The notes below the pieces were generated by a model. That model searched no databases and was not told the origin of the DNA. It saw only the letters and a program-made list of their open reading frames with translations. From Symmachiella macrocystis (GTDB lineage Bacteria; Planctomycetota; Planctomycetia; Planctomycetales; Planctomycetaceae): a stretch of 64,000 nucleotides of DNA. Positions 4,336 to 6,474 of the stretch are shown piece after piece (positions within the stretch are counted from its first letter, which is position 1; every line of letters begins with the position of its first letter). The stretch spans positions 62,001 through 126,000 of the forward strand of contig NZ_SJPP01000003.1 of assembly GCF_007860075.1 (NCBI RefSeq), given 5' to 3'. The position numbers and the translations under genes are program-made.

Positions 4336-5115
4336 TCAGAGTGAGCGGCCGATGATATATCCGTGCGGATCCACCTGGTCCCGCAAGGCGTCGAGTTGAT
4401 CGCTCGTGGGCAGAGCAGTCGTTGCCAGTTGTTCGGCAACATCGATATCAAACGACGTTCTGCTGCGGACCGCTTCTAACGTCACGCCCGGGTGCAGCGA
4501 CTCGACTTGCATCCGCTTCGTGTCCGGGTGAAAACCGAGGATGGCCAAGTCGGTGATGACTTTGTGCGGCCCGGTCCCGGGTGGCAGCCCGGCCGCTTCG
4601 CGGGCTCCTGGGCCATCGAGGTACCCGGCGGTCGTCACATAATCGACTCGCTCCACGAATCGTCGAGGATCGTGCGGCGTGATGACCAACGTTTTTCGGC
4701 ACAGCGACCCGAGATCATTAGCGCCACCGCTGCCCGGCAACCGCACCGCCGGCGTGTCGTAATCGCCGATGACTGTGGAATTGAGATTGCCATAACGATC
4801 GATCTGCGCCCCTCCCAAAAAGGTGTAGTCGACCATTCCCCGTTGGCAGGTTTCCATAATGTCCGCCATGCTGGTCGCCATCAGACCTTGGTAAAACGTG
4901 CGAGAATCCCCCACGCTGATCGGCATCCGCGGCAATCGCGGCCCAACGCCCCCCGCTTCGAACATCAACGTCAATTTGGGAGCCGTCGTCAATTGCGCCA
5001 GCATCGCCGCCGCACAGGGCGCTCCGGTCCCCACAACCACCAAAGCGCCATCTTCGAGCAATCCAGCCGCCGTGCAGATCATTTGTTCGATGGGTGTGTA
5101 GGTCTTTGTGGTCAT
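4336..5115 (-). CDS. CoA-transferase beta subunit (family I)
   Basis: About 259 residues from MTTKTYTP (5115); the upstream in-frame extension crosses a repeat and is not protein-like. The protein matches the beta subunit of family I CoA-transferases (glutaconate or 3-oxoacid type): GALVVVGTGAP near the N-terminus, FLGGAQIDRYGNLNSTVIGDY and PGSGGANDLGS. These enzymes transfer CoA between acyl donors and acids in the cytoplasm, normally as an alpha/beta pair. No alpha subunit gene is next to it: upstream are a GxxExxY gene and a cyclase gene, both on the same strand. The substrate cannot be assigned. Confidence 0.85.
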   Translation of the reverse strand: MTTKTYTPIEQMICTAAGLLEDGALVVVGTGAPCAAAMLAQLTTAPKLTLMFEAGGVGPRLPRMPISVGDSRTFYQGLMATSMADIMETCQRGMVDYTFLGGAQIDRYGNLNSTVIGDYDTPAVRLPGSGGANDLGSLCRKTLVITPHDPRRFVERVDYVTTAGYLDGPGAREAAGLPPGTGPHKVITDLAILGFHPDTKRMQVESLHPGVTLEAVRSRTSFDIDVAEQLATTALPTSDQLDALRDQVDPHGYIIGRSL

Positions 5116-5141
5116 GGTTGCTGCTTTGGGGAAAAGGGGGC

Positions 5142-5170
5142 CTCGCGCAAAGACGCAAAGGCGCAAAGAA
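5142..5170 (+). repeat. Left inverted repeat of the GxxExxY unit
   Basis: 29 bases built on CGCAAAG-type words repeated with a period of about 8 (CGCGCAAAG, ACGCAAAG, GCGCAAAG). It matches the reverse complement of 5659-5687 at 27 of 29 positions. Confidence 0.85.
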
Positions 5171-5219
5171 AAAGAAAGAAAAAGAGAAACAGTAAATCAT
5201 TGCATTGATAGGCAGGAGG

Positions 5220-5612
5220 TTACTCTATCAGCTTATTGACGAGTCGAACCAGTCCGTCTTTCATCAACGGAGCCCCGAAGTTCAATAGTAAGCCCAATCG
5301 CTTCTTTGCTAGTTTGAGGTATGTTAACAGTTGTTTCTTATGGACCGGCAAGAGTGTTTCAATCGATTTTAGTTCCAAAATCACTTTGTCGTTGACGATC
5401 AAGTCCGCCACAAAAGCTCCTTCGAACTGGATGGAATCGTAGGTCACTGGAATTAGAACCTGCCGCTGCACAGATAGTCCCCGTTTTTTCAACTCGTGCT
5501 CAATACACGTCTCGTAGACAACCTCGAACAACCCTGGTCCAAGAGTGGAATGGACCTTTATCGCAGCATCTACCACTTGAGTAGCAATTTCGTTTTCAGT
5601 CAATTCAGGCAT
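5220..5612 (-). CDS. GxxExxY protein (PD-(D/E)XK nuclease superfamily)
   Basis: 130 residues from the ATG at 5612, which has AGGGA at suitable spacing; an ATG at 5618 is also in frame. The family-naming motif is GLFEVVY (G-x2-E-x2-Y), followed by HELKKRGL. A nuclease-like core follows: DLIVNDKVILELKS supplies the D...E-x-K residues, and QLLTYLKLA the downstream helix. Pfam places the family with PD-(D/E)XK nucleases; its biochemical role is unknown. The length (about 125-135) is normal, so the gene looks intact. The flanking 29-bp inverted repeats at 5142-5170 and 5659-5687 suggest that gene and repeats travel or act together. Confidence 0.9.
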   Translation of the reverse strand: MPELTENEIATQVVDAAIKVHSTLGPGLFEVVYETCIEHELKKRGLSVQRQVLIPVTYDSIQFEGAFVADLIVNDKVILELKSIETLLPVHKKQLLTYLKLAKKRLGLLLNFGAPLMKDGLVRLVNKLIE

Positions 5613-5658
5613 TGTCATTTCCCTATATTCGCTCGTAAATACTTGGAACGAAACTTGG

Positions 5659-5687
5659 TTCTTTGCGTCTTGGCGTCTTTGCGCGAG
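5659..5687 (-). repeat. Right inverted repeat of the GxxExxY unit
   Basis: Inverted partner of 5142-5170 with two mismatches; reads TTCTTTGCGTCTTGG... on the plus strand. It ends five bases before the stop codon of the cyclase gene. Confidence 0.85.
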
Positions 5688-5691
5688 TCCT

Positions 5692-6474
5692 TTAAGCAGA
5701 AGGCACCAAGGCCACGGCGCGGCACCAGCCGGCGCTGGCGGCTTTGATTTTTACGGGGAGGCATGAGACGTAGAATCCGTGTGGTTGGGGGAGTTGATCG
5801 AGATTGGCCAGTTTTTCGATTTGACAATATTCCGCTGTGATGCCGGCGAAATGCGCCGGCCAGATGTGTCGGCCGTCGCCCGTTTTTTTGTAGTCCGCGA
5901 CCATGTTGGCAAATGGACGGTCGAGCGTATAGGCGTCGATGCCGATCACCCGTACCCCCTGCTCCACCAACCAGAGCACCCCCTCGCGTCCCAAACCGGG
6001 TTGCTGGAAATAGGCGGCTGAATCGATCCGCTTATCCGCGTCAGTGCGAAGCATCACGATGTCCAGCGGCTGAAGCGTGTATTCAATCCGCTCCAGTTCT
6101 GCTTGAAGATGCGCGACGGTAATTTCTTCGCCATCAGGCACATTACGTACGTCGAGAACGACTCCGGATGCGAAACACCACTCAAGCGGCACATCGTCGA
6201 TCGTTCGCGCCGGTTCGCCAGCTGATGTTGCACCGTAGTGGTAAGGGGCATCGACGTGCGTTCCGCTATGGGTGATCGCCTGCACCTGCTCCACCGCCCA
6301 GCCCTGCCCCTCGGAATAGACAAGGTCCTCCGGTGGGATGCCGAAGAACTGCTGCATCTGCGCCAAGCCCTCACCTGCGTGGTCGAAATAGTGAATTTGC
6401 GCGGGCAGCGGTTCGCTGGGAGCATTGTGTTCCAAGGGGACGCTGAGGTCGATCATTTTGCAATTGTCAAACAT
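5692..6474 (-). CDS. Cyclase / kynurenine-formamidase-like metal hydrolase
   Basis: 260 residues. HSGTHVDAPYHYG (residues about 69-81) is the H-x-G-T-H-x-D-x-P-x-H metal-binding signature of the cyclase family (bacterial kynurenine formamidase, isatin hydrolase and polyketide-cyclase-like enzymes). These are cytoplasmic Zn- or Mn-dependent hydrolases of amides or lactams. The N-terminal MIDLSVPLEHNAPSEP is also typical. No tryptophan-degradation genes are present, so the substrate is open. It is co-directional with the CoA-transferase beta gene about 580 bases downstream; without the intervening GxxExxY unit the two would be close enough for one operon. Confidence 0.85.
   Translation of the reverse strand: MFDNCKMIDLSVPLEHNAPSEPLPAQIHYFDHAGEGLAQMQQFFGIPPEDLVYSEGQGWAVEQVQAITHSGTHVDAPYHYGATSAGEPARTIDDVPLEWCFASGVVLDVRNVPDGEEITVAHLQAELERIEYTLQPLDIVMLRTDADKRIDSAAYFQQPGLGREGVLWLVEQGVRVIGIDAYTLDRPFANMVADYKKTGDGRHIWPAHFAGITAEYCQIEKLANLDQLPQPHGFYVSCLPVKIKAASAGWCRAVALVPSA

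Follow-up and report, generated by a model that had tools for sequence, protein, structure and literature searches.

A GxxExxY nuclease-fold gene between inward-facing word arrays in Symmachiella macrocystis: a candidate gene-plus-repeat system

RAYTs are related to the IS200/IS605 tyrosine transposases and are flanked by short palindromes (PMC2817692). As described in the available parts of that paper, REP/RAYT systems have features that recur in the material presented here: inverted repeats flank the gene, gene and repeats coevolve, the gene diverges more than its neighbors, and the presence of the gene correlates with the abundance of the repeats (PMC2817692). In TIRYTs and TIRtrons, too, inverted repeats bracket a small gene and in part belong to dispersed families, but the enzyme is a tyrosine transposase, and neither CGCAAAG nor TTTGCG appears in the main text as available (PMC3733652). 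The COG4636 proteins resemble ours in another way: they are proliferating PD-(D/E)XK proteins, mainly cyanobacterial, and have been proposed to be selfish. They form a separate family, however, and cognate inverted repeats are absent from the available part of their description (PMC551604). GxxExxY genes themselves receive passing mentions in the accessible portions of the open-licence PMC literature, and in that literature we found no earlier description of the repeats reported below or of an association between GxxExxY and repeats.

Here we consider a GxxExxY gene of Symmachiella macrocystis that lies in the window, by which we mean the whole 64-kb stretch of DNA that was analyzed (Table 1). 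A sequence-only reading of the window had described the gene as lying between 29-bp inverted repeats identical at 27 of 29 positions and the whole unit as placed between co-directional genes. Comparison of the arms (27/29 positions agree) and the profile matches of the gene bear this out, as does the orientation of the cyclase, GxxExxY and CoA-transferase genes, all on the minus strand. The repeats had further been described as made of an 8-base word; the 8-base step is right, and the words themselves are 7-mers, three to an arm and all read inward. A repeat finder lengthens the arms to 5139-5170 and 5659-5690 (32 nt, 91%). Four bases separate the end of the right arm from the cyclase stop codon (5692-5694). 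The pair is unique in the 64 kb at a length of at least 25 bp, with at most 2 mismatches and within 1 kb, and a chance origin was set aside, as 0 of 20 dinucleotide-preserving shuffles of the window hold such a pair.

Table 1. The GxxExxY unit and its neighbors in the window
Feature	Position	Strand	Remarks
Left arm	5142..5170	+	Outer motif CTCG, then inward CGCAAAG words starting 5146, 5154, 5162
GxxExxY gene, 132 aa, predicted PD-(D/E)XK nuclease	5220..5618	-	Profile matches, alignment and model
Right arm	5659..5687	-	Inward minus-strand words CGCAAAG 5677-5683, CGCCAAG 5669-5675, CGCAAAG 5661-5667
Flanking CoA-transferase family gene (PF01144)	4336..5115	-	Outside the unit; ATG at 5115
Flanking putative cyclase gene (PF04199)	5692..6474	-	Outside the unit

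The open reading frame matches TIGR04256 (GxxExxY) at 141.3 bits (cut-off 35) and PF13366 (PDDEXK_3) at 139.1 bits (cut-off 22). These are the only profiles matched in NCBIfam and Pfam, and their family descriptions give GxxExxY no function. In an alignment of 74 sequences, the window protein included, G27, P28, G29, L30, E32, Y35, D72, E82, K84 and N113 are invariant, and Q96 and Y100, a pattern for which we take QxxxY to be the motif name, are present in at least 90%. The AlphaFold model (mean pLDDT 93.9, pTM 0.87) has as its nearest solved folds SSO0001, which we take to be a Cas4 protein, lambda exonuclease and AdnAB/AddAB. The matches are modest, the best TM scores to the query being 0.45-0.52 with one match at E < 0.001; a search for sequence relatives in the PDB, with E values of up to 1 allowed, gave none. 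The fold result is in line with weak matches to Cas4 or CRISPR-associated profiles. Fold and catalytic residues together thus suggest a nuclease of Cas4 or RecB-like type, with the fold scores modest. The likeness to the RecB/Cas4/lambda-exonuclease branch consists in the fold match and the invariant D72, E82 and K84, whereas the window protein differs in being stand-alone, 132 aa long and accompanied by its own inverted word arrays. In all seven Nostocaceae GxxExxY pairs with dS > 0.1, dN/dS is 0.12-0.29; judged from these ratios, the gene is under purifying selection.

The unit differs from the RAYTs in its protein, which belongs to the PD-(D/E)XK group, and in its arms, which consist of short words in series. 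The matches give no sign of an HUH motif or of the catalytic tyrosine of IS200/IS605, the profiles being those of GxxExxY and PDDEXK_3 and the best folds those of nucleases. The enzyme is unrelated to RAYT, and the relationship is one of analogy, not of membership. As an analogy, REP/RAYT appears to be a closer working model than a classical transposon.

Arms of this kind are general around GxxExxY genes. We scored them by local alignment of the 250-bp flank on one side with the reverse complement of the opposite flank. The window gene, with its true bounds, scores 26.5, and none of the other 45 long frames of the window (46 in total) reaches 18.5. This cut is the 95% point of one sampled null of mismatched flank pairs; in two other such nulls the point lies at 22.9 and 20.0 (the latter from the hold-out set), varying and running high owing to the likeness between arms from different loci. 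Three sets were scored: a family set of 33 (the four copies of the S. macrocystis genome and 29 matches that scored high in 120 family genomes), a named set made from the best 80 of 581 loci in one scan of genome contigs, of which 78 were scored, and a hold-out of 40 further loci from the same family of genomes, the unit of the sister species G066 included, for which the criteria were set beforehand. L081 and L121 were left out for their short flanks, and L024, the same element as L022, is counted in the family 33 and omitted from the word-code comparisons below.

A score of at least 18.5 is found in 28/33 family, 58/78 named and 36/40 hold-out loci, against 129/1054, 440/6006 and 54/592 mismatched flank pairs (7-12%). 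At 23 or more the counts are 24/33, 40/78 and 27/40, and those of mismatched pairs 39/1054 (family) and 79/6006 (named). Above 16 are 64/78 named loci vs. 783/6006 mismatched pairs, and displaced flank pairs of the named loci exceed 16 in 0 of 62 cases. Some loci fall short: five of the 33 and four of the 40 lie below 18.5, and 14 of the 78 at 16 or less. The arms have polarity. Inward arrays with at least two CRCNNAG words occur on both sides at 21/33, 47/78 and 20/40 loci (88/151 in total), and outward ones at 15/151. At the remaining loci the words are related ones, such as CACGAAA and CGCGAAT, or there are no arms; a passing score needs no CRCNNAG, as L223 and L245 illustrate. The record titles of the named loci come from many phyla and include one MAG labeled Methanosarcinales (L117), and the same arms there led us to set aside a trait of this lineage only. 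Cargo of phages or plasmids was also set aside, GxxExxY matches with one Nostoc protein as the query amounting to 0 of 50,697 phage records and 8 of 72,556 plasmid records; against this rejection, the available part of one paper lists a single GxxExxY gene in an algal virus.

The words covary with the protein. Among the 87 of 110 loci that score at least 18, protein distance and arm distance are correlated, with a Mantel r of 0.41 for the 27 family loci, 0.21 for the 60 others and 0.21 for all 87 (p = 0.0005, the lowest value that 2000 permutations allow). Residue 95 of the window protein, a lysine, adjoins Q96 of the QxxxY pattern. At the 98 of 110 loci that score at least 15, lysine at this position goes with 31 CTC and 0 ACC outer motifs (10 without a call), and alanine with 28 ACC, 4 CTC and 1 of both (17 without a call); seven loci have another residue. 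The outer-motif patterns and the rule for residue 95 were picked after viewing this discovery set, and a cruder version gave 24:2 vs. 2:31. In the hold-out, with four low-scoring loci omitted, lysine is found with 4 CTC and 0 ACC (2 without a call) and alanine with 16 ACC, 4 CTC and 1 of both (6 without a call), three loci having another residue (Fisher p = 0.0066). The words thus appear to track the protein, K95 going with CTC-type ends and A95 mostly with ACC-type ends.

The S. macrocystis genome has four TIGR04256 loci, every one between inverted arms, and the arms are of three kinds. CGCAAAG-like arms are found at the window unit and, more diverged, at L003 (G000:C1:4244408-4244758); L001 has arms built of CACGGAG words, and L004 (G000:C1:1391920-1392264) those of the longer CCACGGATT type. 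An in-frame TGA is present in L004, and in L003 the lysine K84 of nearly all relatives is replaced by R; therefore not all of the copies are likely to be active. The arms also occur without the gene. The pattern CGCAAAGNCGCAAAG has 15 exact occurrences in this genome and its reversed control 0; within 600 bp, an inward-facing mate array accompanies 12 of these sites and an outward one 0 of 15. This yields eight units that lack a GxxExxY gene and measure 64-329 bp; at least eight such mini-units share the words of the window unit. Their left outer edge has at least 4 A in 8/8 and their right edge at least 4 T in 6/8, and in 6/8 the folding z is below -2 (vs. 50 mononucleotide shuffles). By eye no target duplication is seen at the window unit or at these mini-units, at boundaries that no clean paired empty site fixes.

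Across 120 family genomes, the number of GxxExxY genes correlates with that of CRCNRAG triplets (Spearman 0.54, kinship ignored; 0.53 in the 96 genomes of at least 90% completeness). The triplets total 2869, vs. 268 for the reversed pattern, whose correlation with gene count is weak (0.21). The median is 19 sites in the 83 gene-bearing genomes and 0 in the 37 without the gene. Ten of these 37 have at least three repeats with no GxxExxY found, and 18 of the 83 have zero sites of the searched pattern.

In the sister species G066 the window site is occupied, by a cassette whose arms contain CGCAGAG. The two GxxExxY proteins are 80% identical, and the genes agree at 10 of 45 four-fold sites (35/45 differ), vs. 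a four-fold identity of 0.69-0.80 (20-31% differing) in five neighboring genes. This contrast, seen in the sequences of two genomes, may mean either that one cassette was replaced or that the gene evolves far faster than its neighbors. The RAYT authors, in the part of their paper available, read a similar divergence as faster evolution than that of the neighbors (PMC2817692). Fast evolution could likewise account for the divergence from G066. The sequence-only reading had counted a gene always present at this locus amid diverged flanks as evidence against mobility; at G066, the one relative that allows the comparison, it is the flanks that are conserved and the cassette that differs. Allele-like differences of this kind, together with the weak Cas4 profile matches, are also what one might see at a polymorphic locus for self-recognition or defense, at which the nuclease would cut or spare DNA depending on its own arrays and diversifying selection would act on alleles that homologous recombination exchanges. 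For such a locus, however, the dispersed mini-units would be superfluous, and in the defense library the weak Cas4 and PDC-M36A matches stand alone, so that we regard this explanation as improbable.

An empty site in relatives had been proposed as the means of deciding on mobility. For the window site none is available: G066 is occupied, and G023 was dropped as a witness as synteny is broken there. A comparison of 400 kb (C3:1-400000 of our genome with G066:C1:4214501-4614500) shows units common to both genomes and two, ragged at the edges, that are confined to G066; it yields no clean empty site of the GxxExxY unit type. Other palindromic repeats (such as CCAGTTTCAAAACC..., CACTGGCGG...CCGCCAGTG) are present in one species only at aligned sites of these two genomes.

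Sites with and without the unit do exist in the Nostocaceae, where the 3' ends of a convergent gene pair, which we take to be DVR and MGL, enclose it. The set consists of 30 loci from a search of 80 genomes plus 5 more. A GxxExxY frame with the motif is found in 15 loci, of which L253 has a frame that ends prematurely; the unit of L271 runs off its contig, and L255 and L258 have a damaged or shortened gene with both arms kept. Five loci (L257, L260, L269, L273, L274) have a mini-hairpin or partial scar alone, and 12 have no array, with both neighbors kept in six of them (L180, L182, L256, L266, L276, L277). L264 carries the gene turned round with respect to its flanks. One site is thus on record in full, reduced, inverted and empty form, a natural progression from the complete element to its absence. 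Between the occupied L179 and the empty L180, DVR protein identity rounds to 100%, and the empty sites may be losses. In L177, downstream of the DVR gene, both arms contain an identical inserted sequence at mirror-image positions, as would be seen after copying from one arm to the other.

The 15 Nostocaceae proteins form two groups, one with CGCAGAG-type and the other with CGCAAAG-type words at both ends as judged by eye, so that gene type and arm type match in 15/15, a few words deviating. The type changes five times on the DVR tree (some nodes of which are weak) and once on the GxxExxY tree. Five changes vs. a shuffled mean of 5.27 indicate no tie of type to the flank tree; here, as at the G066 site, the history of the cassette is at odds with its flanks. 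Swaps of cassettes could be the work of ordinary homologous recombination. Counts of CGCAAAG:CGCAGAG triplets are 10:15 and 48:23 in two genomes with a CGCAAAG cassette, 5:16, 2:11, 0:11 and 10:18 in four with a CGCAGAG cassette, and 11:6 and 2:2 in the empty-site genomes G123 and G127 (relatives of G120); they are 12:5 in S. macrocystis, 17:17 in G066 and 0:9 in G023. In these 11 genomes the counts loosely follow the resident cassette, and other copies may be present in the same genomes.

The sequence-only reading had suggested a mobile element. That gene and arms act as a unit, that gene-less arms occur elsewhere in the genome and that the Nostocaceae have the site both with and without a unit agree with the suggestion; no insertion event with target duplication was found in any of the compared sites. 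A conventional cut-and-paste transposon, with the PD-(D/E)XK protein as its transposase, would have terminal inverted repeats and, at several locations, derivatives that lack the gene, and orthologous sites would occur both occupied and unoccupied, as is the case here. Against it, no target duplication was seen, plasmid and phage matches to the Nostoc query given above are scarce, and the four copies in one genome bear three kinds of arms and are not near-identical; we hold it to be quite unlikely.

Word arrays are also found around genes of another family. Four-helix-bundle genes (TIGR02436) are present in 45 of 61 family genomes, and 18 of the 30 loci fetched have an arm score of at least 18.5, the 95% point of their mismatched null being 16.5. 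Their arrays too are inward and have a vocabulary of their own (words such as TCAGTNN, TCAGT, AGTGGCC, GGAGTTA and GAGAGTT); an example is L184 (G000:C3:423606-423923), one of L183-L212. Arrays may therefore arise without the GxxExxY nuclease, which is the most serious objection to the reading we prefer. Each of the two protein families may read a code, or a process outside the control of both may build arrays round small genes; the former is favored because words and protein covary. An alternative is that the arrays are repeats of the host or of other elements, such as two-way terminators or repeats that another transposase mobilizes, and GxxExxY a tolerated passenger. The edges of the mini-units, with A on the left and T on the right, do resemble two-way terminators, other repeat families also differ between S. 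macrocystis and G066, and the four-helix-bundle genes likewise sit between word arrays. A passenger, however, would not be expected to have a type that the words track across phyla and within one site, nor to be under purifying selection, and the two gene families use different vocabularies. We consider the passenger unlikely, if the least so of the alternatives raised here.

The explanation we prefer, with a probability of roughly 0.6, is a widespread gene-plus-repeat system: the gene for a minimal RecB/Cas4-like nuclease lies between two word arrays that face inward and are its predicted recognition sites. The nuclease would cleave paired arrays, probably once these have folded into a hairpin in single-stranded DNA. 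It would do so at its own unit as well as, in trans, at the gene-less mini-units, which would spread by this action. Whole cassettes, gene and both arms together, would swap at established sites, and internal deletion would let units decay to hairpins, scars and finally empty sites. We would go further only tentatively, and put the following at somewhat less than an even chance: that there is a class of nucleases with word arrays in bacteria and at least one archaeon, whose enzyme reads the words at its own ends and on dispersed hairpins and whose cassettes re-home into sites where remnants of earlier copies persist, the four-helix-bundle proteins being a second class with this architecture and another code.

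No tested system fits these units, which may thus be of a new kind; a broader kind, an endonuclease gene with its own dispersed repeats, would include them. GxxExxY genes, which are present in many genomes, are now tied to a repeat family and to a code between protein and words that can be tested. If the preferred reading is true, they would be a second, independent solution to the role that RAYTs have for REPs, by a different chemistry, and could explain a large set of short intergenic repeats.
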